From an uncultured Porphyromonadaceae bacterium (GTDB lineage: Bacteria; Bacteroidota; Bacteroidia; Bacteroidales; Muribaculaceae): DNA of 64,000 nt. The notes under the pieces were generated by a model. That model did not search any database. It was not told where the DNA came from and was given only the letters and a program-made list of their open reading frames with translations. The stretch lies in the NCBI GenBank assembly GCA_947176915.1, contig CAMWSM010000001.1, forward strand, positions 79,880 through 143,879, written 5' to 3'. Both the position numbers and the translations under genes were made by a program. Numbering within the stretch: the stretch's first letter is position 1; the number at the start of each line of letters is the position of its first letter. Of the stretch, positions 16,737 to 62,690 are shown one piece after another.

Positions 16737-16797
16737 CTTAGTTTTCAATTTTCTATTCTAATTTTTCAATTTTCAACTTTCAATTTTCAATTCTATA
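16737..16797 (+). repeat. Degenerate heptad tandem array (TTTTCAA type)
   Basis: A run of TTTTCAA / CTTTCAA units with a 7-base period fills the leader of purT. The ORF track translates it as an artificial N-terminal extension rich in FQFS. The same unit recurs at 21517-21560. Confidence 0.7.
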
Positions 16798-17985: not shown

Positions 17986-18036
17986 GGATGTTAAGGTGTT
18001 AAGGGGGAAGGGTTAAGGGTTAAGGATTAAGGGGAT
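17986..18036 (+). repeat. Degenerate TTAAGG tandem array
   Basis: Repeated GTTAAGG, GGTTAAG and GATTAAG units fill the short gap between purT and the exporter genes. Confidence 0.7.
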
Positions 18037-19962: not shown

Positions 19963-20519
19963 TTATTTTGAGTGGTTGGAGCGGTATTCGCGGCGCGCCC
20001 TGCTCATGGCTTCACGAATGCCTCCTGACTCAAGGAATCTGCGTTGCTGCGATTCCAATAGTTTGTCAAGAAGATATTGGGTCTGCCTGATCAAGGTGAT
20101 TGCAAGATTGCAGAATTCCTCTGCGGGAGTCTGCAAACTAATTCCCTATATTCTGACTCAAAACGGGGAGAACAAAGATAGGTTCTCAATTTATCAAGCC
20201 GTGGATGCCCCTTCTCCCAACGTGATAATTGCTTGAACCGGAGATAATCAATGTAATCTTCTTCCAGTTCACTTAATGAAGCCCGAGCCACATTGGTGAG
20301 TTTTATCTCTGTCTCTTTCGAAGTAGGCGCAGCAGCACTCCCCTCTACAATATTTTGTTTACATGAGCGAGCTGCCTGCTGCATCTGATCGGTTGTGCGT
20401 GAACCACGTGAAATAAAACGGTCTACAAACACCTCTGTGATTACAGAAACTATCGTGGCAAGTCTGTAGACTTTGAGGGAACGAACATCTCCGTTGTGGA
20501 TAATAAATTTCTCATTCAT
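19963..20519 (-). pseudogene. Frameshifted four-helix-bundle (S23-like suffix) protein
   Basis: The first frame (20519 down to 20091) gives a four-helix-bundle protein (DQMQQAARSCKQNIVEGSAA) of the 23S rRNA-intervening-sequence-protein type, then runs off as RELVCRLPQRNSAILQSP. Another frame continues from about 20140 as QTPAEEFCNLAITLIRQTQYLL, then LESQQRRFLESGGIREAMSR, ending at the stop at 19963. This is the normal C-terminus of four-helix-bundle-suffix proteins. The total length (557 bases) is not a multiple of three, so one frameshift near 20130-20150 splits the gene. A good promoter (20549-20579) remains. Either the gene is recently broken or one base is a sequencing error; programmed frameshifting is less likely because no slippery run is visible. 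Confidence 0.75.
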
Positions 20520-20596: not shown

Positions 20597-20618
20597 AAAC
20601 ATGTTTTAAAACATGTTT
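20597..20618. promoter_or_regulatory. Perfect 22-bp palindrome, candidate operator of the Ter operon
   Basis: AAACATGTTTT followed immediately by its exact reverse complement. It lies in the divergent gap between the four-helix-bundle promoter and the TerD operon -7 element, about 40-60 bases upstream of the presumed Ter start. The position suits an activator or dual regulator site; no regulator gene is adjacent. Confidence 0.6.
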
Positions 20619-20643
20619 GGAGGATATATCAAACTATTTTGTT

Positions 20644-20651
20644 TAAATTTG
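20644..20651 (+). promoter_or_regulatory. -7 element of the Ter operon promoter
   Basis: TAAATTTG fits TAnnTTTG. The nearest TTTG upstream (20616-20619) is 24 bases away and overlaps the palindrome, a wide spacing that could require an activator. Leader of about 100 bases to the first terD. Confidence 0.55.
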
Positions 20652-20758
20652 TGGTAAAGAAAGCATTTACCTTTCTCTTTTTTTATTATTATATAACAGT
20701 AGGATTTCAGATCTTCCCTACCGACTTTCTTCTTATAACTCTAATATCATAATAGATT

Positions 20759-21373
20759 ATGGCTATAAATCTCGTAAAAGGACAACGTGTTGAAATAGGA
20801 CTCTCCCGCCTAATAGTAGAAATGGGATGGAAAGTAAATCCCGATGCAGACCCACCCTACGATCTTGACGCTTCCACTTTCCTGCTTCGTAAGAATAATG
20901 AGATCGGCGTGGAGGAGGATTTCGTTTTTTATGGATCACCTAACACCAAAGAGACACCCGATGGGAGCAGACCCATGTCGAAAGACGGGAGCGTGTTAGG
21001 GGCAGTGGACGACAGAGGAGATGACGATGATAACACAGGCATCGGCGAGGAATCAATTGAAGTGGATCTCTCCAAGACAGATCCGCTGATTGATCAGATT
21101 CTTTTCACGGCAAGCATCTACTGGGAAAAGGGTTCCAAGAGTGAGAGATATAATTTCGGACAGGTCAGGAATGCCTATATCCTCATTAAGGATGCGGTGA
21201 GCGGTGAAGAGATCTGCCGCTATGATCTCGACGAGGATTTCTCCACAGCCAAAGGGGTGGAGTTCGGACGGCTTTACAGAAGGAACGGCGCATGGAAATT
21301 TGAAGCCGTGGGCATCCCCTATACTGACGGGCTGGAACCTATCGTGCGCAAATATGCGTCGCGATTTATGTAA
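20759..21373 (+). CDS. TerD-family protein 1
   Basis: First of three TerD-family proteins (204 residues). It starts MAINLVKGQRVEIGLSRLIVEMGW and contains YDLDASTFLL, IEVDLSKTDPLIDQILF, FGQVRNAYI and the conserved tail GRLYRRNGAWKFEAVG. The Asp-rich loops (DLDAS, DDRGDDDDNTG) match the calcium-binding sites known in TerD. The acidic insert around residues 80-100 is longer than in the other copies. TerD proteins are cytoplasmic, bind Ca2+ and belong to tellurite-resistance-type stress modules that have also been linked to phage and oxidative stress. Head gene of the operon behind a palindrome and its own promoter. Confidence 0.9.
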   Translation: MAINLVKGQRVEIGLSRLIVEMGWKVNPDADPPYDLDASTFLLRKNNEIGVEEDFVFYGSPNTKETPDGSRPMSKDGSVLGAVDDRGDDDDNTGIGEESIEVDLSKTDPLIDQILFTASIYWEKGSKSERYNFGQVRNAYILIKDAVSGEEICRYDLDEDFSTAKGVEFGRLYRRNGAWKFEAVGIPYTDGLEPIVRKYASRFM

Positions 21374-21453
21374 AGTTGCGGAAAATCCGCCACTGCCTGT
21401 CATCCTTTTTTCTGCAAAGTTGCGAAAGTGCATCCGAAACTCTTTTGAAAGGC

Positions 21454-21461
21454 TAACTTTG
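21454..21461 (+). promoter_or_regulatory. Internal -7 element before the second terD
   Basis: TAACTTTG fits the -7 consensus, between terD 1 and 2. No clear -33. It could give an extra transcript for the rest of the operon. Confidence 0.45.
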
Positions 21462-21516
21462 CATCATCAAAATCGACAAACACCTCTCCCGAGAGGTAAA
21501 CGCTTTTGATCTTAAA

Positions 21517-21560
21517 TCCTCAACTTTCAATTTTCAACTTTAAATTTTCAATTTTCAAAG
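21517..21560 (+). repeat. Degenerate heptad array (TTTTCAA type)
   Basis: Seven-base units CTTTCAA, TTTTCAA and CTTTAAA immediately before the second terD, the same unit as in the purT leader. Confidence 0.65.
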
Positions 21561-21562
21561 AT

Positions 21563-22117
21563 ATGGCTATAAATCTCGAAAAAGGACAGCGTGTGGCTGT
21601 CGAACTTCCCAAGTTCACGATCGGACTTGGATGGGACGTGAACAGTTCTTCTACGGGCACTGACTTCGACCTTGACGCCTCTGCCTTCATCATGGGAGAG
21701 AACGGCAAGATTCTTGCAGACGAGTTCTTCGTTTTCTACAATAACCTGAAATCGCCTGACGGAGCCGTAGAGCATACCGGGGATAACCGCACAGGGGAAG
21801 GTGAAGGGGATGACGAAAGCATCCGCATCGATCTTTCAAAGATAGATCCTCGGGCTACTCAGATAACCTTCGTTGTAACAATTCATGAGGCAGATTCCCG
21901 CCGTCAGAATTTCGGTCAGGTAAGAAATGCTTTCATCCGCATCTACGACAGCGCTACGGGAGAGGAGATCATGCGCTATGATCTTGATGAGGATTTCTCA
22001 GTGGAGACAGCAGTGGAGTTCGGAAGGCTCTATAAGAGAAACGGACAGTGGAAGTTTGAGGCGATCGGCACCGGTCAGAAAGCGGGGTTGGCGCAATATT
22101 TGGAGAAGTATAATTGA
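21563..22117 (+). CDS. TerD-family protein 2
   Basis: A 184-residue TerD-family protein (MAINLEKGQRVAVELPKFTIGLGW ... DFDLDASAFIMGENGKI ... IRIDLSKIDPRATQITFVV ... FGQVRNAFIRIYD ... GRLYKRNGQWKFEAIG). All conserved calcium-loop acidic residues appear present. The length matches typical TerD or TerE. The ORF track begins 19 codons upstream inside a TTTTCAA repeat; the true start is ATG 21563, whose first residues match the start of the first and third copies. It is the most typical TerD of the three. Confidence 0.92.
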   Translation: MAINLEKGQRVAVELPKFTIGLGWDVNSSSTGTDFDLDASAFIMGENGKILADEFFVFYNNLKSPDGAVEHTGDNRTGEGEGDDESIRIDLSKIDPRATQITFVVTIHEADSRRQNFGQVRNAFIRIYDSATGEEIMRYDLDEDFSVETAVEFGRLYKRNGQWKFEAIGTGQKAGLAQYLEKYN

Positions 22118-22277
22118 GGCGTTAGGCATTAGGCATTAGGCGTTAGGTGTTAGGCGTTAGGCATTAGGGACGAGGCGCGAGATGCTGACTCATACCATTA
22201 AAAATCAAATTTTACGGCTTTGGACCTTGCCTCGGACCTCAGACCTCGAGCCTAATGCCTAAAGCCTAAAGCCTAAA
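22117..22277 (+). repeat. Inverted heptad arrays (GCGTTAG / CTAATGC type)
   Basis: Seven or more GCGTTAG, GCATTAG and GTGTTAG heptads, an approximately 65-base middle, then the inverse CCTAATG, CCTAAAG and CCTAAAG heptads. Together they can form a large hairpin between the second and third terD genes. The same unit occurs at 62496-62690. Confidence 0.75.
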
Positions 22278-22306
22278 AAATTTTTTAAATTTCAATTTTA
22301 ATTATT

Positions 22307-22972
22307 ATGGCTATCAGACTTGAAAAAGGACAGAAGATAAATCTTGAGAAAAATAATGGCTCCAAACTCACTGAATTTTGCGTGGGCTGCAACTGGGGCG
22401 CAATAGTAACATCAGGGGGATTCCTCGGACTGGGTAAAAAGACTCAGGATGTTGACCTCGATTTGAGCTGCCTGATGATCGACGCTAACGGGAATATATG
22501 CGATCATATCTATTCACCCCTTTACCGTACAGATTTCCTCGGGCGATATGGAATGCCTCCCGGCAAAGTAGACTCCCTTGACGGAGCGATGCACCACAGC
22601 GGTGATGACCTCCAGGGGGATCAGGGGGGCGACGATGGTCTTGACAATGAAATCATCACTGTCAACCTGAATCGTGTGAGTCCGAACGTGAATCAGATTT
22701 TCTTCTTCCTGAACAACTGTGGCAAAGAGGATTTCTCCCAGATACCCTACGCTTCCATCAGAATGTATGAGGGGACTCCGTCAAGAGTAAAAGAGGTGTT
22801 CGCTTCCTACGATGTGGCAGCAGAGCCAAGGTATCGCGGGGCTACGGCACTTATAATGGGCAAGCTTTACCGCCGCAACGGGGAATGGAAATTCTCAGCC
22901 ATCGGCGATGCCTATCCCGACAAAAATATCTGTGAGACTATCCAACGGATAGCAACAAATTACGCAAAATAA
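22307..22972 (+). CDS. TerD-family protein 3 (TerZ-like)
   Basis: A 221-residue divergent TerD-family protein. The start MAIRLEKGQKINLEKNNGSKLTEFCVGCNWG and the tail GKLYRRNGEWKFSAIGDAY mark the family. It has a Gly-rich insertion (TSGGFLGLGKKTQDVDLDLSCLMIDANGN) and the loop DLQGDQGGDDGLDNE. Its greater length and the FCVGCNWG opening resemble TerZ-type members. It ends 5 bases before the first vWA gene, indicating co-transcription. Role by family: calcium-binding scaffold or sensor in a Ter stress module. Confidence 0.88.
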   Translation: MAIRLEKGQKINLEKNNGSKLTEFCVGCNWGAIVTSGGFLGLGKKTQDVDLDLSCLMIDANGNICDHIYSPLYRTDFLGRYGMPPGKVDSLDGAMHHSGDDLQGDQGGDDGLDNEIITVNLNRVSPNVNQIFFFLNNCGKEDFSQIPYASIRMYEGTPSRVKEVFASYDVAAEPRYRGATALIMGKLYRRNGEWKFSAIGDAYPDKNICETIQRIATNYAK

Positions 22973-22977
22973 AAATT

Positions 22978-23616
22978 ATGAGAAAACTACCGGTTTACAT
23001 TCTTCTCGACACCTCCGGCTCAATGTATGGTGAGCCTATCGAGGCAGTAAAGAACGGACTGCAGGTGCTCACAAGCACTCTGACCTCCGATCCATACGCT
23101 CTTGAAACCGCCTATCTGAGTGTCATCACTTTTGACAGCACAGCCAAACAGGCTGTGCCCCTCACGGAGATAGCCGCTTTCCAACCACCGCAGCTTAAGG
23201 CTTCAGGATGCACCGCTCTTGGGGAGGCGCTTCAACTCGTGGCTCAATGTGCTGACCAGGAAGTGATCAAAACCACTCCTGAAAAGAAAGGAGACTGGAA
23301 GCCGCTCGTCTTCATCATGACAGACGGAGAGCCTACGGATGATATCCGCAAAGGTCTTGAGGATTTCAAGAGCAGGAAGTGGGGAATGGTAGTGGCTTGC
23401 GCAGCGGGAGCAGGAGCCAACACCAATACGCTGAAGCAGATCACTGAGAACGTGGTGTCGCTCGACACAGCCGACAGCGCCACAATCCGCCAATTCTTCA
23501 AATGGGTGTCAGCTTCCGTTCAGGCTAACAGTGTGAAGGTTGATGAAGGGAAAGGGGAAATCAACTCCATAGGAGAGCTTCCGCCTCCGCCGCCTGAGGT
23601 AAATATCGTGATTTAA
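22978..23616 (+). CDS. TerY-like von Willebrand A domain protein 1
   Basis: A 212-residue vWA protein. The metal-ion-dependent adhesion site begins DTSGS (LLDTSGSMYGEPIEAVKNGL), with further MIDAS positions in SGCTALGEAL and IMTDGEPTDD. This is the cytoplasmic TerY type of Ter operons. The tail is PPPPPEVNIV, a proline-rich end shared with the 23786 gene. TerY proteins are predicted to bind metal and act with the phosphatase and kinase encoded downstream (the TerY-P triad described for Ter systems). It follows the third terD by 5 bases and is followed by a small palindromic element. Confidence 0.9.
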   Translation: MRKLPVYILLDTSGSMYGEPIEAVKNGLQVLTSTLTSDPYALETAYLSVITFDSTAKQAVPLTEIAAFQPPQLKASGCTALGEALQLVAQCADQEVIKTTPEKKGDWKPLVFIMTDGEPTDDIRKGLEDFKSRKWGMVVACAAGAGANTNTLKQITENVVSLDTADSATIRQFFKWVSASVQANSVKVDEGKGEINSIGELPPPPPEVNIVI

Positions 23617-23630
23617 TTTATCGGAATTTA

Positions 23631-23727
23631 GAAAGAGGATATATTGAAGTTAGCTTTTTAGGGCGCAGCGGGATTGCGGAGCAATCCCCTCCCAGGCATT
23701 ACTCTTAATTTTGATATATCCTCTTTC
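23631..23727. repeat. MITE-like palindromic element
   Basis: Perfect 14-bp terminal inverted repeats GAAAGAGGATATAT / ATATATCCTCTTTC bracket a core hairpin (GGGATTGC-GGA-GCAATCCC plus CCTCCCAGGCATTAC). The core is shared with 43559-43737. It sits between two vWA genes. Confidence 0.7.
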
Positions 23728-23729
23728 TT

Positions 23730-23765
23730 CCTCTTATTTCCTTATTTTCTTATTTCCTTATTTTA
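23730..23765 (+). repeat. Degenerate CTTATTTC array
   Basis: CTTATTTC and CTTATTTT units of about 8 bases in the leader of the second TerY-like gene. Confidence 0.5.
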
Positions 23766-23785
23766 TAATTCTCTATCCTTCTAAG

Positions 23786-24421
23786 ATGCGTATTCTTCCC
23801 GTATATCTTCTTATCGACACTTCCGGCTCCATGCATGGCGAGCCGATAGAATCCGTCAAGGTTGGCTTGGAGGCGCTTGTCAGCAGCCTGCGTCAAGAGC
23901 CGGCTGCCTTGGAATCGGTTGCTCTCAGCATCATCACTTTCGATAAGGATGTGAAGCAAATTCTCCCCCTCACTCCGCTTGACGAACTCCAGCTTCCGGA
24001 AATCACTACTCCTGAAAGCGGACCCACTCACACCGGACTTGCCTTGCAACTGTTGTGCGAAAGAGTTGACAAGGAGGTGAAAAAGGGCACTGCCGAGACA
24101 AAAGGGGATTGGAAACCACTGCTCTTTATAATGACCGATGGAAAGCCCTCCGACAGCAAACTATATAAGGATATGATCGAGGAGGTAAAGAAACGTCATT
24201 TCGGAAATATAGTGGCGTGTGCAGCCGGACCGTCAGCCAAAGCGGAGGAATTGCTGAAACTTACGGATAAGGTGGTGTCGTTAGACACGCTTGACAGCAC
24301 AGCCTTCAAGAAATTCTTCAAATGGGTTTCCGACTCTATCAATATCGGCAGTCAGAGTGTAGGCGCCACAGACGACATCGCCCTACCACCTCCACCCCCG
24401 GAAGTGAACCTCATCCTCTAA
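23786..24421 (+). CDS. TerY-like von Willebrand A domain protein 2
   Basis: A 211-residue paralogue of the preceding vWA gene (MRILPVYLLIDTSGSMHGEPIESVKVGLE; IMTDGKPSDSKL; tail PPPPPEVNLI). MIDAS motif DTSGS and the TDG element are intact. I start at ATG 23786; the 25-codon upstream part of the ORF is translated repeat DNA. The two adjacent copies share their whole layout, suggesting tandem duplication, with a MITE-like element between them. It is likely a partner of the downstream kinase and phosphatase, inferred from the known Ter triad. Confidence 0.9.
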   Translation: MRILPVYLLIDTSGSMHGEPIESVKVGLEALVSSLRQEPAALESVALSIITFDKDVKQILPLTPLDELQLPEITTPESGPTHTGLALQLLCERVDKEVKKGTAETKGDWKPLLFIMTDGKPSDSKLYKDMIEEVKKRHFGNIVACAAGPSAKAEELLKLTDKVVSLDTLDSTAFKKFFKWVSDSINIGSQSVGATDDIALPPPPPEVNLIL

Positions 24422-24457
24422 AACCTAAAGCCTAAAGACTAACGTCTAAAACCTAAA
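24422..24457 (+). repeat. Degenerate CCTAAAG heptad array
   Basis: CCTAAAG, ACTAACG and CCTAAAT heptads fill the gap to the AIM24 gene. Confidence 0.6.
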
Positions 24458-24459
24458 TT

Positions 24460-25071
24460 ATGAATGTAAAACTAAAAGGAGCTTACGTAAAACATCTGGA
24501 GGTGGAGCTTTTCCCCGGAGAGGAGTTTTATGCTGAAAAGGGTTCGCTGATATACATTGAAGAGGGAATCGACATGACGAGTGAGTTTTCCGGAAATTCA
24601 CTCGGACAGATCATCGGCTCCAAGCTATCGGGAGAGAATCTCCTTATCGTGCATTACCGCAATTTCACATCGCAGCCGCGCCGCCTCGTGCTCGGGTCGC
24701 GAGGGGGAATGATTCATTTCAAACTCACCAACTCGGAAATTATCTGCAATCGCGGAGCATACGTGGCATCAAGCAAGAAAGTGGATCTCTCGATGAAACT
24801 TTCCCTTTCCGGATTTATAGGTGGGATAGGAGGAATGTTGCAAAGAGTGAGCGGAGATGCGACTGTATTTCTTGAGACCATAGGAGATCCTATTATCGTA
24901 GAGTTAGGACCGGGACAAGGCATTCAGATTGACGAACAGCATTTCCTTGCCCTGGAAGGAATACCTGAAAACAGGATCACACCTCAGTTTTCCACCCGCA
25001 ACCTCTTCGGAGGGGAGGGACTGAGGATGCTCAGCGTGCGCGGACCCGGCAAAGTCTACCTCAACCCCTAA
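24460..25071 (+). CDS. AIM24 / TIGR00266 family protein
   Basis: A 203-residue protein of the AIM24 family (double-psi-like beta-helix; TIGR00266 in bacteria). Visible traits are the start MNVKLKGAYVKHLEVELFPGEEFYAEKGSL, the glycine-rich LSGFIGGIGGMLQRVSGD, and ELGPGQGIQIDEQHFLALEG. The function in bacteria is unknown; homologues commonly occur with TerD and vWA genes. Here it lies between the second and third vWA genes of the Ter operon, which supports a role in the same module. The gap upstream is a CCTAAAG repeat and the gap downstream a TTAACCC repeat. Confidence 0.88.
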   Translation: MNVKLKGAYVKHLEVELFPGEEFYAEKGSLIYIEEGIDMTSEFSGNSLGQIIGSKLSGENLLIVHYRNFTSQPRRLVLGSRGGMIHFKLTNSEIICNRGAYVASSKKVDLSMKLSLSGFIGGIGGMLQRVSGDATVFLETIGDPIIVELGPGQGIQIDEQHFLALEGIPENRITPQFSTRNLFGGEGLRMLSVRGPGKVYLNP

Positions 25072-25127
25072 CATCTTAACCCTTAATTCTTAACCCTTAA
25101 CCCTTAACCCCCTTAACCCCCTTAACA
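25071..25127 (+). repeat. Degenerate CTTAACC heptad array
   Basis: CTTAACC, CTTAATT and CCCTTAA units up to the start codon of the third vWA gene. Confidence 0.7.
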
Positions 25128-25128
25128 A

Positions 25129-26175
25129 ATGAGACGACTTCCTATATATTTCCTTATAGACATTTCGGAATCAATGGTGGGTGTGCCCATAGAGCAGGTG
25201 CAGGAGGGGATGCGCAACATCATACAGAATCTGCGCACCGATCCATACGCTCTTGAAACCGTCTTTGTCAGCATCATAGCATTTGCCGGGAAAGCGGTTA
25301 CCCTCTCCCCTCTCACCGAGCTTTACAAATTCTATCCTCCCGTCTTCCCTATCGGAGGGGGCACGTCGTTAGGCTCAGGGCTGGAAGCGCTGATGAACGA
25401 CATCGACAAGTCTGTGCAGAAAACCACTATGGAAAAGAAGGGAGATTGGAAACCGATTGTATTCCTTTTCACAGACGGCAACCCCACGGACGACTATTCC
25501 GCCGCTTTCAGGAGATGGAACAATCATTACAGGAGACATGCGAATCTCGTGGCAGTCTCCTTAGGAGATAATGTAAACACACTGACTCTTGCGCAAATAA
25601 CTGAAAACATTCTCCTGCTTAAGGACACGGACCCCAAATCTTTCTCCGAGTTTTTCAAATGGGTGTCGGATTCAATAAAAGCCTCCAGCATGTCAGTAAC
25701 AGACTATGGAAGCGATGAACTTCGTCTACCCTCCACAACAGGGATTAATCTTGAAAAAGTAAATCCGGCGCAACATTCCAATCCGGATGAGAATTTTGTA
25801 GTGCTTCACGGTCGGTGTCAGACCACCCACGGGGATTATCTGGTGAAATATGCACGGAAAGATAACTTGTTTAATGAAAACTTTGCCTCCTATTACAGAG
25901 GGCCGGGCTTCCGCCTGGTAGGGGCTTATCCGGTGAACGGCGCTAAATATCAGCAACTTTCCTCCGGAGAGGAGGCCTCGGTCAACACGTCATCCCTTAC
26001 CGGCGTGCCCGCGTGTCCCTGCTGCGGCAATCAGCTCGGGGTGGTCGTTTGTGAATGCGGGAAAATATTCTGTGTGGGAGAGAATGGGGATCACGCCTGT
26101 CCGTGGTGCGGACTGGAGGGCACTTTAGGGGACATCGGACCCGGAGGGCTGGACATAACCAGAGGTTTGGGATAA
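25129..26175 (+). CDS. vWA plus TerY-C zinc-ribbon protein
   Basis: A 348-residue protein with an N-terminal vWA domain (MIDAS IDISESMVG, a DxSxS variant, and FTDGNPTDDYS) and a C-terminal zinc-ribbon-like part resembling TerY-C (CPCCGNQLGVVVCECGKIFC ... CPWCGLEG). The cysteines form three CxxC-like knuckles, enough for one or two zinc ions. Residues 240-300 are a separate segment (DENFVVLHGRCQTTHGDYLV). The architecture matches the TerY-C partner known with the Ter kinase and phosphatase. It follows the AIM24 gene and precedes the PP2C gene by about 30 bases. Confidence 0.88.
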   Translation: MRRLPIYFLIDISESMVGVPIEQVQEGMRNIIQNLRTDPYALETVFVSIIAFAGKAVTLSPLTELYKFYPPVFPIGGGTSLGSGLEALMNDIDKSVQKTTMEKKGDWKPIVFLFTDGNPTDDYSAAFRRWNNHYRRHANLVAVSLGDNVNTLTLAQITENILLLKDTDPKSFSEFFKWVSDSIKASSMSVTDYGSDELRLPSTTGINLEKVNPAQHSNPDENFVVLHGRCQTTHGDYLVKYARKDNLFNENFASYYRGPGFRLVGAYPVNGAKYQQLSSGEEASVNTSSLTGVPACPCCGNQLGVVVCECGKIFCVGENGDHACPWCGLEGTLGDIGPGGLDITRGLG

Positions 26176-26207
26176 CACACTGTCATCACTGTCAATGAAA
26201 CATAATT

Positions 26208-27650
26208 ATGAATAGAGAACAACGCCTTGTAGCCCGCAGAAATGCCGCTGACTCCCGGATAAAAGATTTTTTGGATGCCTTTGAAGAAGCAGCCGACCGC
26301 CTTTCAATTCCATGTTCGGAAAGGAGGAGATTTCTGGGATGGACAATTGAAAACCTTTGGAACAAACATATTGAAGAACGTATGAACCGACGTCTCGTAA
26401 TAGAAAATGAAATTAATAATCTCGGATTACGCATTCCTAACGGGACTGTACGTAAAGCCTATACAGCCTCATTCGCTTTGCCGGCGGATAAGGTGAAGGA
26501 TGTAGCTATAGATGGGCTTGAGGAAACGGGTCTTACGCTCAGTCAGCCGGCGGAAGGGGAATATCTTATTTCAGGCACACCTCAGAAACATGGCGATTTC
26601 ACCCTTACAGTCTCCTACTCGACAGTGGAGGGTGAGCCGCGTTCGAGTTTCAAGCTTCCCGTGGCTTTTAATCCTGATCCACGCTCGATATGGCGCGACC
26701 TTAGAAGCCGGCTTCATAAGGATGGGGTGAAACCGGATTGGGCTACGGAATATATTATGGTGAAGGAGGATGCAGAGGGGGCGCCACGTAAAGATGTGAT
26801 CGCTGCCAGCATCCAGGGACGCAGCCATGCGCATGAGGAGCGTCCCCGGGATGATTATTTTGCAGCCCGTCATTATGAGGATTCCGACTGGTATGTAGTG
26901 GCTGTGGCTGACGGCGCCGGCTCTGCCCCGCTCTCCTGGAAAGGTTCTGAAATTGCTTGCGACACGATCATTGAACATTGTCGGGAAAATCTTGACGGGA
27001 ATAAAGTTTTTGAAGAGGCAATTGCCGCCTTTCATGCCGATCCCAATACGGAATTGCGCTCTGTGCTGACGGCACAAGTTTCCAACATTATCTACAAAGG
27101 GGCTGTAAAGGCACACGAAGCAATCAATGCGGAAGCGGCAGCCCAAGGGGAGAAGCCACGCGACTACGCGACCACCCTGATGTTTGCGATCTGCAAGCAT
27201 TTCTCGTTCGGATGGTTCATCGCCTCATTCTGGGTAGGGGACGGAGCAATGTGCATTTATGACGAAAAAGGGGGAAGCGCAAAGCTTTTGGGGACGCCCG
27301 ACGAAGGGGAATTTTCAGGTCAGACACGATTCATCACCATGCGTGAGATTTTCCATGACAAGGATTTGGTAGCCAAAAGGATGAGGATGACTATCGTGCC
27401 CGATTTCACTGCCCTTTTCCTTATGACCGACGGAGTTTCGGACCCTCTGTTTGAAACTGACAATAATCTTAATGACTTCAATAAATGGAAGGAATTTTAT
27501 TCCCTCCTTAAGGAGGGTTTTCCGGAGGATGGCATCCCGGGGGTCAATCTTACGGATGATAATCCGGAGGCTGCGGGAGAACTGCTTGAATGGCTTAAGT
27601 TCTGGCGACCGGGGAATCATGATGACAGAACGATGGTGGTGGTGAAGTAA
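26208..27650 (+). CDS. PP2C-family protein phosphatase with N-terminal beta-sandwich domain
   Basis: A 480-residue protein. Residues 1-75 are helical. About residues 85-160 look like a putative Ig-like/cadherin-like sandwich (EGEYLISGTPQKHGDFTLTV). About residues 205-480 are a PP2C catalytic domain with metal-binding acidic motifs AVADGAGSA, GDGAMCIYDE, FLMTDGVSD and NHDDRTMVVV. It should remove phosphate from Ser/Thr targets, probably opposing the adjacent kinase. No signal peptide is visible, so an Ig-fold domain on a cytoplasmic phosphatase is unusual; it may bind the TerY proteins. It follows the vWA/zinc-ribbon gene and precedes the kinase gene across a TTAAGGG repeat. Confidence 0.88.
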   Translation: MNREQRLVARRNAADSRIKDFLDAFEEAADRLSIPCSERRRFLGWTIENLWNKHIEERMNRRLVIENEINNLGLRIPNGTVRKAYTASFALPADKVKDVAIDGLEETGLTLSQPAEGEYLISGTPQKHGDFTLTVSYSTVEGEPRSSFKLPVAFNPDPRSIWRDLRSRLHKDGVKPDWATEYIMVKEDAEGAPRKDVIAASIQGRSHAHEERPRDDYFAARHYEDSDWYVVAVADGAGSAPLSWKGSEIACDTIIEHCRENLDGNKVFEEAIAAFHADPNTELRSVLTAQVSNIIYKGAVKAHEAINAEAAAQGEKPRDYATTLMFAICKHFSFGWFIASFWVGDGAMCIYDEKGGSAKLLGTPDEGEFSGQTRFITMREIFHDKDLVAKRMRMTIVPDFTALFLMTDGVSDPLFETDNNLNDFNKWKEFYSLLKEGFPEDGIPGVNLTDDNPEAAGELLEWLKFWRPGNHDDRTMVVVK

Positions 27651-27651
27651 G

Positions 27652-27722
27652 GGGTTAAGATGTTAAGAATTAAGGGTTAAGGGTTAAGGGTTAAGGTGTT
27701 AAGATGTTAAGGGTTAAGGGGA
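27652..27722 (+). repeat. Degenerate TTAAGGG heptad array
   Basis: TTAAGGG, TTAAGAT and TTAAGGT units with a period of about 7. It is the telomere-like block before the kinase gene. Confidence 0.75.
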
Positions 27723-27754
27723 AGGGGGGAGGTAAATTTAATAAGAAGAGTGTG

Positions 27755-29236
27755 ATGGCAAAGACTATAAAATTGAAAGCCCTTGATGGCTCACCGGTGG
27801 AATTTGTGGATGAGGTGATTGGCAGCGGCGCGATGAAGGATGTGTATTTCAGCCCTGACAAAAGCTATGTCGTGGGCTTTTTCCGTCAGCCTCAGGATGC
27901 AAATGCCAAAGACCGGCTTCAAAATATCGTAGGAAGATACCGAGAGAGAATTTTCAATCAGGTGGGCGGAGATTATTGGGAAAATCTTTTCTGCTGGCCT
28001 ACCAAGCTTGTGGAATGGAACGGGAAGTTGGGAGTGGTCTGTCCCGCTTATCAGAAACATTTCTTCTTTCAGGAGGGAAATTTCAAAGGGAAGGAGAAGG
28101 AGGGGAAATGGTTCGCCTCGGCTAAATTACGCAATAAATTCCTTACTCCCAAGCAGAAGGGCACTTTCCTCTCCAACATCCATCTGTGTCTGCAGATTGC
28201 ACGCGCTGTGCGCCGTCTTCATGCAGCCGGGCTTGCGCATTCCGATCTCTCTTATAAAAATGTACTCGTAGACCCTGAATCGGGGCGTGCGTCGATCATT
28301 GACTGCGATGGACTGGTTGTGCCGGGGAAATATCCTCCCGACGTTGTGGGAACCCCTGACTTCATTGCGCCTGAGGTGCTTCAGACCCGTTCCCTGAAGA
28401 AAGATGATCCCAATAAGAAACTGCCGAGCATACTGACCGACCGTCATGCCTTGGCGGTGCTGATCTACATGTATCTTCTCAACCGTCATCCGTTGCGCGG
28501 GGGAAAGGTGAACGATCTCGACCCCACCAAAGATGAGGAGCTGTCAATGGGAGAAAATGCTCTTTTCGTGGAACACCCCACCGACAGGAGCAACCGCCCT
28601 AAAACCGACAATATGGCACCTTCCGAACTTCCGCAGGGTGATGTTGAGAAACGTCCGTACACACTCTGCGGACCCTATCTGTCGGAACTTTTCCGCCGGG
28701 CATTCATAGACGGCTTGCATGATCCTTCCAAGCGTCCTACAGCCGACGAATGGGAAATTGCTCTCGTAAAGACCACCGATCTGATACAACCGTGCCAAAA
28801 TCCTCAATGTGAAGGTAAATGGTTTGTTTTCGACAATACCACCAAGTCTAAGTGTCCTTTCTGCGGCACGGAATATCACGGGCAACTTCCGGTGCTTAAC
28901 CTTTACTACTCCCCCTCTAAAGGGAAATTTCTTCCTGACAATTACCGTCTGATGGTCTACGACAAACAGTCGCTCTATATGTGGCACGTCAACCGCCTCA
29001 TCACTCCCAACGAGCGCATCAAACCGGAGGATAAGAAGCCCGTGGGCGACTTCCATTTCCATAACGGAAAATGGATCCTCATCAACCGCCGGCTTCCTGA
29101 CTTATGGGAGATAACGGACAGCGGGAAACGACATGTGAACCCCGGGGAGTATGTGGAACTGACCGAGGGGAAGAAGATCCTGCTCTCTTCGGAAGAGGGG
29201 GGAAGGCTGATAGTAACTCAATTGGTGAAAAATTAA
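27755..29236 (+). CDS. Ser/Thr-type protein kinase of the Ter module, with zinc ribbon
   Basis: A 493-residue kinase. The glycine-rich loop is IGSGAMKDVYF near residue 22. The usual beta-3 Lys position reads YVVGFFR, with no Lys. The catalytic loop HSDLSYKNVL is present (His, Asp and Asn as expected), as are the DFG-equivalent IIDCDGL and the APE-equivalent FIAPEVL. A zinc-ribbon-like CQNPQCEGK ... CPFCGTE follows near residue 370 and a beta-rich tail after that. The Lys in the glycine loop (AMKDVY) could replace the missing one, as known for WNK kinases, but this is inference. The start is ATG 27755; the first 17 ORF codons are repeat DNA. With TerY, TerD and PP2C it completes the phosphorylation triad described for Ter systems. 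Confidence 0.87.
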   Translation: MAKTIKLKALDGSPVEFVDEVIGSGAMKDVYFSPDKSYVVGFFRQPQDANAKDRLQNIVGRYRERIFNQVGGDYWENLFCWPTKLVEWNGKLGVVCPAYQKHFFFQEGNFKGKEKEGKWFASAKLRNKFLTPKQKGTFLSNIHLCLQIARAVRRLHAAGLAHSDLSYKNVLVDPESGRASIIDCDGLVVPGKYPPDVVGTPDFIAPEVLQTRSLKKDDPNKKLPSILTDRHALAVLIYMYLLNRHPLRGGKVNDLDPTKDEELSMGENALFVEHPTDRSNRPKTDNMAPSELPQGDVEKRPYTLCGPYLSELFRRAFIDGLHDPSKRPTADEWEIALVKTTDLIQPCQNPQCEGKWFVFDNTTKSKCPFCGTEYHGQLPVLNLYYSPSKGKFLPDNYRLMVYDKQSLYMWHVNRLITPNERIKPEDKKPVGDFHFHNGKWILINRRLPDLWEITDSGKRHVNPGEYVELTEGKKILLSSEEGGRLIVTQLVKN

Positions 29237-29254
29237 CAATATCATATATTGGCA

Positions 29255-30652
29255 ATGGCTACAAAGAGAGAGAAAATTGCAGTGGCACGCATATTTGCCG
29301 ACCTTATCAAGGCAGACCGTATCGTGGATATCGGCGAAATGGAATATTGGGAGGAGATTTGCTCAAAATATGGCATAAACAGAGAGATTCATCTGGAAGC
29401 AAAACATCTCTCCTTTTCCGATGCGCTGACTGTAATCTGCAATTCGGACGACCATTCCCTTAAACCTGAACTGCTTGCCGACTGCAGGAGAATGACTGTA
29501 TCGGACGGTTTCTGCGCCCATTCGGAAGCTTTGATAATAAGCGCCATAACCTTTCTACTGGATAAAGAAAATAATGTAGCTACGGAAGTTTACTCCATTC
29601 CACGTTCCAACTTCAACATCGATATGGCAACGATGGTGTATGTTGAATCAGACTACGACAAGGAGACAAATGAGGCTATCATATCGAATTACAGAGCCAT
29701 ATTCAGGGAACTTCAGATCGCCGGCTTCCATTTCATCTATCTTCCCCAGATAATAGGCCATTACAAGGAGACAGAACCGACAAGATTTAAGCAGATTCTT
29801 TCCTTTTTAGCTCCTGATCTCAGCGAGGAGAACATCAATGCTGCATACAGTTCTCTGGTGAATATGACAACCGACAGGTTTTGTGAGGATATTCTTTGCA
29901 ACAAATGCGGAATTGATAATCTCCGCCACACCTATCCGGCGTTGCTGCTGAAGTTCGGGAACAGTTATGTAGGAGATGTGGAATATGCCAACTACCTTAA
30001 AATCGAGGTCGGAAACGACATTCTCACCTTTGTGCAGCATTTTGTAGACAACTTCTGCAAGATGCTGAGCAGCGACCTTTTCATAGTGAAATCATCAGAG
30101 GAGAGGGATAACCAATTCCACTTCTTCGGATTCTATAAGCAACTTCTCGAGATATTTATTGTAAGGAAAAATATCAGAAGCAAAGTGGAGATAAATCTCC
30201 ACGACCAACAGATCCGCTTTCCCGGCATAGACAGATGGCTCAATGAGGTGAACAGGCGCGAACGCGCCCTCTACACGCTGCTGCTCTGCCAGGGGAAAGA
30301 GGGACTGAACTTTAAAAAGCCTATCCCCTCCCAACTCGACAGATATGAACGCAGGATGAAAAAATATCAGAAGCGGTTTGAGGTGATCTATCAGATGATG
30401 GGGGGAGAAAGAACGGCTCCCGATCTGTCAAAAACCAATAACCGCTCCCCTATGCTTACTCATCTAAATGGATGTCTTAAGAAACTTCCGGGCCTTTATA
30501 ATCCACAGGATTATGTCATTTCCCAAGGGGAAAAGGGTCATTATTTCGTGCATCTCCCCTCCGATTATGTCCAGATCACCCCTATGCTCAGCGACCTTCC
30601 GGAACCCCTTCTTGACTCCGAACTTTACAAAAGGGTGATGAGCATCAAATAA
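29255..30652 (+). CDS. TerB-like domain fused to an uncharacterised C-terminal region
   Basis: A 465-residue protein, last gene of the Ter operon. Residues 5-130 resemble a TerB-like helical domain (VARIFADLIKADRIVDIGEMEYWEEICSKYGI ... DCRRMTVSDGFCAHSEALII), with paired acidic sites. The rest (130-465) is unrecognised: a mixed region with EINLHDQQIRFPGIDRWLNE and helical segments, plus Cys in LCNKCGIDN. The ORF track begins at a TTG two codons upstream; ATG 29255 (MATKREK) is the better start. It follows the kinase gene by 18 bases and is co-directional. It could be an effector or sensor of the Ter module, but nothing in the sequence shows the activity. Confidence 0.75.
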   Translation: MATKREKIAVARIFADLIKADRIVDIGEMEYWEEICSKYGINREIHLEAKHLSFSDALTVICNSDDHSLKPELLADCRRMTVSDGFCAHSEALIISAITFLLDKENNVATEVYSIPRSNFNIDMATMVYVESDYDKETNEAIISNYRAIFRELQIAGFHFIYLPQIIGHYKETEPTRFKQILSFLAPDLSEENINAAYSSLVNMTTDRFCEDILCNKCGIDNLRHTYPALLLKFGNSYVGDVEYANYLKIEVGNDILTFVQHFVDNFCKMLSSDLFIVKSSEERDNQFHFFGFYKQLLEIFIVRKNIRSKVEINLHDQQIRFPGIDRWLNEVNRRERALYTLLLCQGKEGLNFKKPIPSQLDRYERRMKKYQKRFEVIYQMMGGERTAPDLSKTNNRSPMLTHLNGCLKKLPGLYNPQDYVISQGEKGHYFVHLPSDYVQITPMLSDLPEPLLDSELYKRVMSIK

Positions 30653-30770: not shown

Positions 30771-33431
30771 ATGGCAGAACAAAAACATTTCACCGGTCTT
30801 ACGGATGCCGAAGTGCTGCAAAGTCGCGAGCAGCATGGAGTCAACATACTGACTCCGGCAGAGAAAGACCCACTATGGAAGCGGTTTTTAGAGAAATTCA
30901 GCGACCCGCTGATCATTATTCTTCTTATTGCCGGCGCTCTCTCCATCGGCATTTCATGTTATGAATACTGGGGTCTGGGTCATGGAGCCGGAGTCTTCTT
31001 CGAGCCTATCGGAATATTCATCGCCATACTTCTTGCCACGGGTCTGGCTTTTATCTTCGAACTTAAGGCTGATAAGGAATTTGCTCTCCTTAATCAGGTG
31101 AATGATGACGAGCCGGTGCAGGTGATCCGTAACGGCAACGTAACTCAGGTGCCCCGCAAGGATATTGTCGTGGGTGATATCGTAATCCTCAACACAGGCG
31201 AGGAAGTGCCGGCTGACGGAGAACTCCTGGAGGCTGTCTCACTGAATATCGACGAATCCACCCTCACGGGCGAGCCGATGTGTCATAAGACCACCGACCC
31301 CGAGCAGTTCAACCCGGAGGATACATTCCCCTCCAACCATGCCATGCGCGGAACAAAGGTGATGGAAGGACACGGAACAATGAAGGTGTTCGCCGTGGGA
31401 GATCAGACGGAGAACGGAAAGGTGTTTGAAGCTGCACAGATCGACGACAGCGTCAAGACCCCCCTTAATGAGCAACTTGACGGACTCGGAGACCTCATCA
31501 CAAAGATTTCATACGCTTTCGCGGCACTCATCGTGGTGGGGCGTATAATAATGTTCTTCTTCAATTATCCCTTTGAATGGGTCAGCTTCATCGCTTATCT
31601 CCTTCAGACGCTGATGATTGCCGTTACGTTGGTGGTTGTGGCAGTGCCGGAAGGTCTTCCGATGGCTGTTACCCTCTCGCTTGCCTACTCCATGCGCCGT
31701 ATGCTCAAGACCAACAATCTTGTGCGCAAGATGCATGCCTGCGAGACTATGGGAGCCACTACGGTTATCTGCACTGACAAGACAGGCACGCTCACGCAGA
31801 ATCAGATGCAGATCTATAAAACTAACTTCTTCGGCAATCCTTCCGACGTGGTGCTATATGAGGGAATCGCCGTGAACTCTACGGCTCAGCTTGATCTTTC
31901 AGGTGAAAAGCCTCAGGTGCTCGGAAATCCCACTGAGGGTGCGCTTATTCTCTGGCTGAAGGAGCGCGGAGTGGATTATGCGAAGCTTCGCGAAACTGCG
32001 CAACGGGTTGAAGAACTCCCCTTCACTACAGAGAGAAAATATATGGCTACTGTAGTGAAATCCTCAACCGGAAAAAAGATACTTTACGTAAAGGGCGCTC
32101 CCGAGATTGTATTCGGGATGTGCAAGGACACTGCCGGAGTAACCAAGCAGGAGATTGACGCTCAGCTTCTCGAATATCAGAACATGGCTATGCGCACCTT
32201 GGGCTTCGCATATCAGGAGATTGAGGATGGAGATGCCACAATCAGAGATAATAAGGTAGCCGCCGAGAAACTCACATTCCTCGGAATTGTCGCTATCTCC
32301 GATCCTGTCCGCGCTGATGTGCCTGCAGCGGTAAGAGAGGTTATGGATGCAGGCATTAAAGTCAAGATTGTAACAGGCGACACTCCCGGCACAGCCAAGG
32401 AGATCGGACGTCAGGTAGGACTCTGGAATGATTCCTTCGACGGCGACGAGAATATAATCACGGGAGTTGAATTTGCAGCGCTTTCAGATGATGAGCTCCG
32501 CAAGCGCGTGGGCAATATCAAGATTATTGCCCGTGCCCGCCCGATGGATAAGAAGCGTCTCGTGGAGTCTCTTCAAGCCAATAATGAAGTCGTGGCTGTA
32601 ACCGGCGACGGCACCAATGATGCCCCTGCCCTAAAAGCCGCTCATGTCGGTCTGTCGATGGGCGACGGCACTTCCGTGGCTAAGGAGGCTTCCGACATCA
32701 CTATTGTTGACAATTCCTTCTCTTCAATCGGACGCGCAGTGATGTGGGGCCGTTCCCTTTTCCAGAATATCCAGCGTTTCATCCTTTTCCAGATGACTGT
32801 CAACGTGGCAGCCTGCTTCATAGTACTTGCAGGAGCTTTCATGGGTACGGAGTCACCACTTACCGTAACACAGATGCTTTGGGTGAACCTCATAATGGAC
32901 ACATTCGCGGCTATGGCTCTTGCTTCGCTGCCTCCGTCGGAGAGCGTTATGAAAGACAAACCGCGCAGCCGCGAGGCATTCATCATCAACCGCCCGATGT
33001 GGCAGTCGATTGTAGGGGTAGGCGGAATCTTCTTCCTGCTTCTTCTCGGCATCCTCTATATCTTCGAGCATTACAGCGTGGAATCAATGACTCAGCTTTT
33101 CACGTTTGCGGAGCAGACAGTGAAAGAGGGACAGCCGGCATTGACGGCTTACGAGCTTTCAATGTTCTTCACCATCTTCGTATTCCTTCAGTTCTGGAAC
33201 ATGTTTAATGCGCGTGCATTCGAGACAGGGAAGTCAGCCTTCCATTTCAAGGGAGCGAGCGGTTTTGTGATGATAGCACTTATAATCGTCATCGGTCAGA
33301 TCTTTATCGTCTCTGTGGGCGGAGAGTTCTTCAACGTTACTCCCCTGCGCATTCTTGACTGGGTGATCATCATCGGCTCGACATCACTCGTGCTTTGGAT
33401 CGGTGAGTTTATCCGGCTTTTCAAGAAATAA
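30771..33431 (+). CDS. PMCA-type calcium-translocating P-type ATPase
   Basis: An 886-residue P2-type ATPase that should pump Ca2+ out of the cytoplasm using ATP. Motifs are intact: TGEP in the actuator domain, the phosphorylation motif ICTDKTGTLTQNQM, KGAPEIV, and the hinge TGDGTNDAPALKAAHVG. PEGLPMAVTLSLAYSMRRML in M4 is typical of Ca2+ pumps. About 8-10 membrane segments are visible. It starts MAEQKHFTGLTDAEVLQSREQHGVN. It stands just downstream of the Ter operon behind its own promoter, a suggestive link because TerD proteins bind Ca2+; a functional tie is inference. Confidence 0.93.
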   Translation: MAEQKHFTGLTDAEVLQSREQHGVNILTPAEKDPLWKRFLEKFSDPLIIILLIAGALSIGISCYEYWGLGHGAGVFFEPIGIFIAILLATGLAFIFELKADKEFALLNQVNDDEPVQVIRNGNVTQVPRKDIVVGDIVILNTGEEVPADGELLEAVSLNIDESTLTGEPMCHKTTDPEQFNPEDTFPSNHAMRGTKVMEGHGTMKVFAVGDQTENGKVFEAAQIDDSVKTPLNEQLDGLGDLITKISYAFAALIVVGRIIMFFFNYPFEWVSFIAYLLQTLMIAVTLVVVAVPEGLPMAVTLSLAYSMRRMLKTNNLVRKMHACETMGATTVICTDKTGTLTQNQMQIYKTNFFGNPSDVVLYEGIAVNSTAQLDLSGEKPQVLGNPTEGALILWLKERGVDYAKLRETAQRVEELPFTTERKYMATVVKSSTGKKILYVKGAPEIVFGMCKDTAGVTKQEIDAQLLEYQNMAMRTLGFAYQEIEDGDATIRDNKVAAEKLTFLGIVAISDPVRADVPAAVREVMDAGIKVKIVTGDTPGTAKEIGRQVGLWNDSFDGDENIITGVEFAALSDDELRKRVGNIKIIARARPMDKKRLVESLQANNEVVAVTGDGTNDAPALKAAHVGLSMGDGTSVAKEASDITIVDNSFSSIGRAVMWGRSLFQNIQRFILFQMTVNVAACFIVLAGAFMGTESPLTVTQMLWVNLIMDTFAAMALASLPPSESVMKDKPRSREAFIINRPMWQSIVGVGGIFFLLLLGILYIFEHYSVESMTQLFTFAEQTVKEGQPALTAYELSMFFTIFVFLQFWNMFNARAFETGKSAFHFKGASGFVMIALIIVIGQIFIVSVGGEFFNVTPLRILDWVIIIGSTSLVLWIGEFIRLFKK

Positions 33432-33496: not shown

Positions 33497-34585
33497 TTAC
33501 TTAATAACGAATATGACATCGGAGAGAGCTTTATAAGCTTTCTTTTTATATTCAAAATGAATTTCTTTAAGATTGTGATGTGAGAAATTTTTAATAAAAT
33601 CATTAATTTTTGGTTCAATTAATGAAAACGCTCGTTTCAGTTTCCAGGATTGGTCAAAATTTATAGAATCTGCTAAAATGAGATATATTCTATTTTCTGC
33701 TCCAAAGCGCATTTCTCCTTGATTTTCATATAACCATCTGATTAATTCGTAAGGATTGCTTTGCGATTCCTCAATAATTTTACGTCGCACACTATCTAAC
33801 TCATCGATAATGGCAGTATTATTTATTTCTTTTAGTTTTTCGGTTAAGATATATGCTTGTTGATTAGGGGAGATACTGGTGGATTTAATTCCTATTTCTT
33901 TACATCTTGTTTTAAGCCATGATAAAGAACCCTTCCCTAATATAGATTTAACCTTTTGTTCCATAAACTGATTAGGGAAAAATGTTACTTTTAGATCAAA
34001 AGGATAATTTTGTATAAAAAAGTCAACACTCTTAATTTCCCCTACAGCAGAGATTACGTCAGGGTTACGTTTGAACAAAGATTCTATAATGAAAGAAGTC
34101 CAATTATTATACCAGCTATTTTGCACATAATCCCATGCATTTGCCCCAATTTCAGGTTGTTTACTTTGCAATTCATTATAATTGCTTATTACTTTTACAT
34201 ACCGACTTATGAAATATTTGTCAAGAGAATTGTTTTGATCGCCTCCCCATGAATAATATTTAATCTTATATAAGTCTTCTTTCAATTGCTCTACATCCAC
34301 TCCCATTTGCGCGTACCACTCATGATTCATACACTGTAGGAAGGCATCAAGCATAGACATAGCATCCGGACGTTTTTTTAAAATATCATATAACTCAACA
34401 TTCCGTGCAGAAACTTTAGTGGTCTTGAGGATTATATTATTTTCTTCAATAAACTGTTGCAATTGCTTTCCCCGACAAATAGCGCGCACTTTTAGCCACA
34501 ATAGACCATAAAAATTTTCATTAAAAGCATTCAAATCTTGATTTCGGAAAGCATAATCCCATTTTTCAAATTCAGTCATAATCAT
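33497..34585 (-). CDS. Candidate type II restriction endonuclease
   Basis: An unrecognised 362-residue protein paired with a DNA methyltransferase, so probably its cognate nuclease. Around residues 185-205 lies VKSVDFFIQNYPFDLKVTFF-like sequence in which D, then DLK about 10 residues on, fits a PD-(D/E)XK active site. The rest is mostly helical, without a known name. The start ATG (34585) lies one base after the methyltransferase stop; a second ATG follows at 34579. Codon use is very AT-rich compared with neighbours, as in a transferred module. Alternative: an accessory subunit of the modification system. Confidence 0.65.
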   Translation of the reverse strand: MIMTEFEKWDYAFRNQDLNAFNENFYGLLWLKVRAICRGKQLQQFIEENNIILKTTKVSARNVELYDILKKRPDAMSMLDAFLQCMNHEWYAQMGVDVEQLKEDLYKIKYYSWGGDQNNSLDKYFISRYVKVISNYNELQSKQPEIGANAWDYVQNSWYNNWTSFIIESLFKRNPDVISAVGEIKSVDFFIQNYPFDLKVTFFPNQFMEQKVKSILGKGSLSWLKTRCKEIGIKSTSISPNQQAYILTEKLKEINNTAIIDELDSVRRKIIEESQSNPYELIRWLYENQGEMRFGAENRIYLILADSINFDQSWKLKRAFSLIEPKINDFIKNFSHHNLKEIHFEYKKKAYKALSDVIFVIK

Positions 34586-34586
34586 A

Positions 34587-62495: not shown

Positions 62496-62690
62496 TTGTT
62501 TTAGGCGTTAGGCATTAGGCTCGAGGCATTAGGCTCGAGGCTCAAGCCTCGAAACTGGGAGAAGGGGCAGTCCCTGCCCCGACCACGACGCATTCCCCTC
62601 GAATATAACCCCTCAAACCTAACCCCTCAAACCTAACACCTAATGCCTAACACCTAATGCCTAATGCCTAAATCCTAACCCCTAACCCCT
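62496..62690. repeat. Inverted heptad arrays (GCATTAG / CCTAATG type) with REP-like core
   Basis: TTAGGCG, TTAGGCA and TTAGGCTCGAGGC units, an internal GAAGGGGCAG-TCC-CTGCCCC hairpin (62556-62590) like the REP elements near 1.7 and 3.8 kb, then CCTAACA, CCTAATG and CCTAACC units. It runs into the neuA-like stop codon at 62668 and contributes its last residues. Confidence 0.75.

Follow-up and report, generated by a model that had tools for sequence, protein, structure and literature searches.

A Ter-type kinase and phosphatase operon of Muribaculaceae with a shared operator and, as its candidate output, a Ca2+-pump regulon

For cells without any exposure to tellurium, the function of Ter proteins has long been an open question. 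Among described systems, the closest to the locus reported here is the TerY-P triad, reportedly defined by Anantharaman, Iyer and Aravind in 2012. We have analysed a 64,000-nucleotide stretch of DNA from an uncultured Porphyromonadaceae bacterium of the Muribaculaceae (contig CAMWSM010000001.1, positions 79,880 to 143,879; hereafter the window), and in it an operon that, like this triad, joins a TerY-like vWA protein, a PP2C-type phosphatase and a Ser/Thr kinase with a C-terminal zinc ribbon, for which a metal-sensing phospho-switch has been suggested. A preliminary description, made from the sequence alone, had recognised a TerY-P type triad with TerD proteins, and our results support that assignment. 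The zinc-ribbon kinase, the link to restriction and the antiphage activity of a TerY-P relative are already in print, as seen in the accessible parts of the papers concerned (PMC11090510, PMC10889362, PMC4978471, PMC7159879). In the part of PMC11090510 available to us, TerY-P is associated with Type II/III-A CoCoNuTs and duplicated vWA genes are described; the triad and the duplicated vWA genes are thus common to both, whereas the McrBC-like or nuclease genes of those systems are not present here. Compared with the TerY-P triad, the locus adds three TerD proteins, two further vWA proteins, an AIM24-family protein, a predicted TerB/winged-helix protein and a Ca2+ pump; its kinase has a predicted FHA-like fold, its genes share an operator and the operon carries no restriction genes.

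The output of the system had been left open in the preliminary description, and it now has a concrete candidate in the last of the ten genes described there (gene 10) together with the shared operator. We lean, if only somewhat, towards reading the locus as a Ter-type phospho-signalling circuit whose output would be the transcription of a Ca2+-pump regulon through gene 10. All ten open reading frames (ORFs) are on the + strand as described (20759-30652, with intergenic gaps of 5 to 189 bp); genes 2, 5, 9 and 10 probably begin inside their ORFs, at 21563, 23786, 27755 and 29255. Pfam bears out the three TerD genes (genes 1-3), the two vWA genes (4 and 5), AIM24 (6), the vWA/zinc-ribbon gene (7, with vWA plus TerY_C), the PP2C phosphatase (8) and the kinase (9). 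The same search gave no match for an immunoglobulin-like part of the phosphatase, a feature of the earlier account that we could not confirm, and none of any kind for gene 10. Furthermore, a unit of ten genes was too short, as it extends on the same strand 118 bp past gene 10 into an eleventh gene, a Ca2+ P-type ATPase, that had been missed. The features are as follows:

20597..20618, no strand: 22-bp perfect palindrome AAACATGTTTTAAAACATGTTT upstream of terD1, with an 18-bp core at 20599 and a box TAAATTTG at 20644
20759..21373, + strand: terD1 (Pfam TerD, 1.3e-47)
21413..21424, no strand: operator TGCAAAGTTGCG before terD2; box TAACTTTG starts 41 bp downstream, at 21454
21563..22117, + strand: terD2 (Pfam TerD, 8.2e-75; Klebsiella TerD 2kxt, E 4.2e-61)
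22307..22972, + strand: terD3 (Pfam TerD, 4.8e-31)
22978..23616, + strand: vWA1, stand-alone TerY-like vWA (vWA alone by Pfam)
23786..24421, + strand: vWA2, stand-alone TerY-like vWA (vWA alone by Pfam)
24460..25071, + strand: AIM24-family protein (Pfam AIM24, 9.1e-37)
25129..26175, + strand: TerY, vWA plus the metal-binding domain TerY_C (Pfam TerY_C, 7.5e-40; VWA, 2.2e-13)
26208..27650, + strand: PP2C-type phosphatase with about 200 extra N-terminal residues (Pfam PP2C_2, 7.4e-40, residues 204-435)
27755..29236, + strand: Ser/Thr kinase with a predicted four-cysteine zinc ribbon and a predicted C-terminal FHA-like fold (Pfam Pkinase, 1.3e-11)
29255..30652, + strand: gene 10, modelled by AlphaFold2 as a TerB-like domain, an alpha/beta middle part and an OmpR/PhoB-like winged helix
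30654..30665, no strand: operator CGCAAGATTGCG past gene 10 and ahead of the Ca2+-ATPase; 40 bp on, at 30694, is the start of the promoter box TAACTTTG
30771..33431, + strand: Ca2+ P-type ATPase of the plasma-membrane Ca2+-ATPase type, eleventh gene (Pfam domain set)

A regulon under a shared operator is well supported by our observations. The strict palindrome, TGMAAYRTTKCA, was first spotted by eye in upstream regions of the operons and was later relaxed to YGMAANNTTKCR; unlinked genes, other families and the offset of the promoter box served as independent tests. Across the 1.3 Mb of 73 loci from the genus, the window among them, the strict motif has 31 unique intergenic copies, 28 of which lie within 400 bp upstream of a gene of the system, a zone that makes up 24% of the intergenic bases (p 1e-14), and the remaining three precede a small membrane gene that stands before the pump. 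The reversed pattern has two intergenic copies, neither of them in that zone. The geometry of the sites is also constrained: pairs 42-46 bp apart, with at most two mismatches each, are found in 12 of 62 operon upstream regions versus 1 of 310 shuffles. The relaxed form has 51 unique sites before system genes, and the box TAnnTTTG, which we take to be a promoter box of the Bacteroidales type, starts 39-42 bp on in 25 of these and 83-86 bp on in 23, as measured from the start of the site to the start of the box. A fixed spacing between operator and promoter is typical of an activator. A search for direct repeats before the operons found none.

The same sites precede terD2, AIM24, TerY, the Ca2+-ATPase and the small membrane gene also when these are unlinked from the operon, and an unlinked PIF1 helicase gene likewise stands under the operator. 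Where the pump is unlinked, a site with at most one mismatch lies before it in 8 of 13 kinase-positive versus 4 of 32 kinase-negative genomes (nominal p 0.0017). Genome-wide, the composite of operator and box occurs at 41 places in 21 kinase-positive congeners, at 12 in 21 kinase-negative ones and at 4 in four genomes of other families, with 0 for the reversed composite in all 46 genomes. These 57 places, some of them outside the compared loci (G201:C8:74849 and G308:C203:4604 among them), gave 53 distinct labelled sequences, 28 of which precede a system gene; the one in L323 is a 29th. The search returned, unprompted, the small membrane protein that elsewhere directly precedes the pump, and also, in G321, a PIF1 helicase 65% identical to the operon-borne one. 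The window's own 3.0-Mb genome has three composites, of which two stand before terD2 (21413) and the pump (30654), while the third lies on another contig with no long gene behind it.

Other genes behind sites, namely those for arginyl-tRNA synthetase, a TPR protein, an AraC-type regulator, an AAA ATPase, FKBP, an ADP-ribosylglycohydrolase and a glycosyltransferase, are unexplained or chance. In two species (L311 and L325; genomes G303 and G310) the composite stands shortly before the arginyl-tRNA synthetase start, which may make this gene a true regulon member or be a coincidence; in L218 (2002-2057; G326) an operator pair 44 bp apart precedes the gene of a 600-amino-acid TPR protein. The window holds a third copy of the operator-like palindrome, TGCAAGATTGCA (20101-20112, where the minus-strand ORF 20091-20519 ends), which recurs in L101 at 238 and for which no promoter role was seen. 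The 22-bp palindrome before terD1 has a copy with two mismatches at the same place in L101, a close relative; as a general operator it was rejected, since apart from this copy the 2.55 Mb of compared loci hold no convincing one.

Gene 10 is a candidate transcription factor because it is modelled as a TerB-like domain joined to a winged helix of the OmpR/PhoB type. In its AlphaFold2 model (21 sequences, mean predicted local distance difference test score, pLDDT, of 85.4), residues 1-105 align with 2h5n (PG1108) at a Z of 12.3 over 104 residues by VIA-align, just below about 13, the tool's caution level for helical bundles. PG1108 is also matched by the profile of the gene-10 family by sequence (E 2.6e-6), and Pfam TerB weakly matches four of ten family members (best 6.7e-4). 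The window's own gene 10 is not one of the four, so that the TerB-like fusion of the preliminary description holds by family profile and structural match, but not by Pfam on the protein itself. Residues 308-442 align with BaeR (Z 9.5, root-mean-square deviation 2.7 over 100 residues), and VIA-align gave further matches for this winged helix to SaeR, AdeR, GlnR, CadC and ToxR (Z 6.0-7.8) and to EmbR, whose structures 2ff4/2fez are among the structural matches of both gene 10 and the kinase tail. Foldseek alone returned no significant match for gene 10, and Pfam found no receiver domain in it or in nine relatives.

The distribution of gene 10 ties it to both the kinase and the pump. Among 61 congeners, 20 carry gene 10 and the kinase, each is found alone in 1 and neither in 39 (nominal Fisher p 7e-14); of the 20 genomes with both, 11 have the two genes side by side or almost so, 3 have them separated on a single contig and 6 have them on different contigs. 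In a sample of 295 genomes from the order, near-full-length homologues of gene 10 occur in four besides its own (G021, G135, G201 and G232), with alignments that take in the C-terminal region. In all four, the homologue lies 150-221 bp from a Ca2+-ATPase, and all four lack the kinase by a profile that detects it elsewhere. Operator-like palindromes lie between homologue and pump in L066, L067, L068 and L176.

The pump has the P-type ATPase domain set by Pfam and a DKTGT motif invariant in ten sequences; its solved relatives are plasma-membrane, secretory-pathway, SERCA and Listeria Ca2+ pumps, led by the plasma-membrane Ca2+-ATPases (E 3.6e-135 and weaker), and the genome of the window (G000) has no second match of this kind at E <= 1e-100. 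A scan of GTDB species genomes gave at least 547 relatives, of which the best 80 were kept, making 81 loci with the window. The best-matching named relatives place the host among the Muribaculaceae, and the named loci include Bacteroides caecigallinarum, Phocaeicola paurosaccharolyticus and Dysgonomonas. The pump lies within six genes downstream of the kinase, on the same strand, in 33 of the 50 loci with at least 6 kb downstream, and in 45 of 62 evaluable loci when shorter contigs are counted where the pump was seen. An insertion hot spot as the mere cause of this linkage was rejected, since the neighbours of the pump differ in congeners without the operon. L158 and L027 have three pump neighbours in common, so loss or gain beside the pump does happen. 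The uvrB/tpi-side genes beside some unlinked pumps were set aside as housekeeping.

The kinase was called in 78 of the 81 loci, and these 78 were used for neighbourhood counts (genes on the kinase's strand and no more than ten genes from it), in which many loci are cut by contig ends and script-based ORF calling misses some genes. The PP2C gene directly precedes the kinase gene in 74, so the gene order is not chance. Near the kinase were found vWA2 in 64 loci, vWA1 in 55, TerY in 54, TerD2 in 52, TerD3 in 51, the Ca2+ pump in 45, AIM24 in 30 and gene 10 in 23; TerY was not seen there in 24, some of them cut by contig ends. Based on these counts, the triad with TerD is the core, and TerY_C itself seems optional. 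The order of the preliminary description is thus conserved in related Bacteroidales, though not as a fixed series of ten genes, as AIM24, TerY and gene 10 are optional or relocated. Counting the window's own genome, TerY_C is present in 6 of the 295 genomes of the order and the kinase profile (E <= 1e-30) in 11 of 395 of the phylum; among congeners the kinase profile is found in 21 of 61. A PIF1-like helicase with a UvrD-type C-terminus (L018 8213-10132, L022 10407-12281, L030 11445-13328, L328 707-2626) is enclosed in some operons and, elsewhere in G321, stands behind the operator. A kinase operon without TerY (L021 14662-18793) runs on into genes for a WD40 protein and a TPR-caspase (Peptidase_C14) protein, possibly a killing output in one species.

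A phage link in IMG/VR was considered and rejected: three scans gave one partial contig with vWA, TerY, PP2C and kinase (L150), two contigs with the pump (L175 and L176) and no vWA1 relative. In INPHARED, 31 records matched the pump distantly, at 49% identity at best. In L176, phage-type genes run into a host-like region where a gene-10 homologue is divergent from a Ca2+ pump, which looks like a prophage-host border filed as viral.

The catalytic and metal sites of the kinase and of vWA1 look intact from their alignments. In the kinase, the motifs H-S-D-L-S...N and D-x-D-G are invariant in 12 sequences, as are four predicted zinc-ribbon cysteines C-terminal to the kinase domain; at the usual place of the strand-3 lysine that kinases carry, this alignment reads an apparently invariant arginine, R44. 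The positions D11, S13, S15, T79 and D116 of the metal ion-dependent adhesion site (MIDAS) of vWA1 are invariant in ten sequences. TerD2 aligns with Klebsiella TerD, which binds Ca2+, over almost its full length. By sequence, the kinase domain finds its best match among solved structures in Rad53 (E 3.3e-8). For the C-terminal 149 residues of the kinase, modelled separately (one usable model of five, with a mean pLDDT of 76.4 against 37.5 to 62.0 for the rest), an FHA-like fold is predicted: 50 of the 50 matches listed for the best model are FHA chains or FHA-containing entries (best Z 9.3), with a best E of 2.0e-3 by Foldseek and no FHA match for the kinase by Pfam.

We propose a model in which the TerD and MIDAS-bearing vWA proteins, with TerY, would sense or scaffold the state of divalent metals, probably Ca2+ or envelope stress, and the kinase (with its zinc ribbon and FHA-like tail) and PP2C would set the phosphorylation of gene 10 or a partner. 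Gene 10 would then turn the phospho-signal into transcription at two stacked operators, binding TGMAA-NN-TTKCA about 40 and about 84 bp upstream of the TAnnTTTG box and activating terD2 onwards, the Ca2+-ATPase, AIM24, TerY, the small membrane protein and, in some species, the PIF1 helicase; the pump, AIM24 and the membrane proteins would restore the balance. Of this, the computation shows the gene content, the common operator with its fixed geometry, the co-inheritance of gene 10 with the kinase and its position beside the pump in kinase-less genomes; Ca2+ as the signal, gene 10 as a target of the kinase and gene 10 as the protein on the operator are what we infer at this stage. For Bacteroidales, the locus thus offers a testable answer to what Ter proteins do, with a transcription-factor candidate, a DNA site of exact promoter spacing and a Ca2+ pump as target.

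Several points weigh against this model. The enrichment at operon starts is partly circular, because the motif was chosen from those same operons, and the Fisher p values are overstated because the genomes are related, whereas the tests take them as independent, with no species tree. The window has the relaxed form only, and its three matches in 64 kb (1.88 expected) are not significant by number, so that they count by position and spacing. The strict motif was not found before most operons outside the genus, and the palindromes between gene-10 homologue and pump in L067 and L068 are related ones, with one or two mismatches. Of the 13 kinase-positive genomes in which the pump is unlinked, five (G311, G313, G315, G325 and G333) have no site with at most one mismatch before it, and two metagenome-assembled genomes without kinase and gene 10 (G332 and G340, 83% and 79% complete) carry a strict operator before the pump. 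The pump does not depend on the system, since 54 of 61 congeners have it; as it is so common, and as the neighbours of unlinked pumps vary among operon-less congeners, we regard its place here as the recruitment of a widespread pump. The link from gene 10 to the palindrome is an indirect one, and it is possible, though in our view unlikely, that the operator is real but bound by another regulator, with gene 10 serving as a cytoplasmic TerB-type partner of the kinase and the kinase acting on a TerD/vWA complex or directly on the Ca2+-ATPase. The two genomes just named would fit such an arrangement, as would the form of the site, which is a palindrome whereas OmpR-type factors usually bind direct repeats, and the fact that unlinked gene 10 has no strict site before it (none among the strict sites). 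It is opposed by the winged-helix fold predicted for gene 10, by its co-inheritance with the kinase and by the kinase-less families, in which it adjoins the pump and operator-like palindromes are present.

The locus could also be an anti-phage system of the TerY-P kind, either stand-alone or accessory, with pump and operator as surrounding stress housekeeping; this we hold to be improbable. It would agree with the protection of Pseudomonas against phage by a TerY-P system and the occurrence of TerY-P in CoCoNuT restriction systems, both reported in the accessible parts of the respective papers (PMC10889362 and PMC11090510), with the PIF1 helicase in 5 of the 78 operons and the WD40 and TPR-caspase proteins of one, and with the patchy presence among congeners. 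On the other hand, PADLOC matched no TerY-P model on the locus (general kinase models only), Pfam found neither a nuclease nor a known effector in the operon of the window, the regulon holds a pump and membrane-type proteins with no known killers, and a search for the kinase among viral contigs yielded a single partial one. A tellurite or toxic-metal resistance operon is a very improbable reading. The TerD family is present and relatives have TelA or TerC, but by Pfam there is no TelA in the window's operon and no TerC among the eleven genes, so that the canonical pairing of TerC with TerD is lacking, and the regulon centres on a Ca2+ pump; tellurite resistance as the main role was rejected on the absence of TerC and TelA. 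We retain, with the reserve expressed above, the phospho-signalling circuit acting through gene 10.

Two further features of the window deserve mention. Arrays of a degenerate 7-bp unit (TTTTCAA, GTTAAGG, AGGCGTT, CCTTAAC and so on), mostly intergenic and several of them inside the operon, lie at 16742-16792, 17990-18033, 21520-21558, 22117-22168, 22249-22277, 24418-24457, 25059-25110, 27652-27720 and 62501-62690; variation in their length between operon genes could shift expression. Directly past the Ca2+-ATPase, on the minus strand (33497-35666), a D12-class adenine methyltransferase gene stands beside that of a 362-amino-acid protein with no Pfam match, a layout like that of a restriction-modification pair.

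In comparison with known systems, the locus resembles the canonical ter operon (TerZABCDEF) in its TerD paralogues and its TerB-like domain and differs from it by having no TerC. Outside the order, in L053-L057, the gene directly after the kinase belongs to one cluster (c16) in 5 of 5 loci and is TerC by Pfam on one member, whereas Bacteroidales have there the Ca2+ pump or genes that lead to it. In the PknH-EmbR pair of Mycobacterium, too, a Ser/Thr kinase, an FHA fold and an OmpR-type winged helix act in concert; in the present locus it is the kinase that is predicted to bear the FHA-like fold, and TerB is the fusion partner of the winged helix. In the literature covered, which lay mostly outside subscription journals and did not include the 2012 founding paper, we found nothing that connects a Ca2+ pump or an operator with TerY-P systems. 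Three terD genes are present in the Jug phages, huge phages of gut Bacteroidales, and so is a Ca2+-translocating P-type ATPase; the accessible part of their description treats the two apart, with 0 occurrences of kinase, vWA or TerY in the paper (PMC12363816). A circuit like the one proposed offers a reason for gut jumbo phages to carry both. The fuller scheme, a Ca2+-stress circuit in which TerD, vWA, kinase and phosphatase would steer a TerB/winged-helix activator of a two-operator pump regulon, and which huge gut phages with terD and a Ca2+ pump would tap or blunt, is speculative and to our mind rather doubtful. As a whole, the core of the locus is the TerY-P triad that is already known, and what looks new is its output side.

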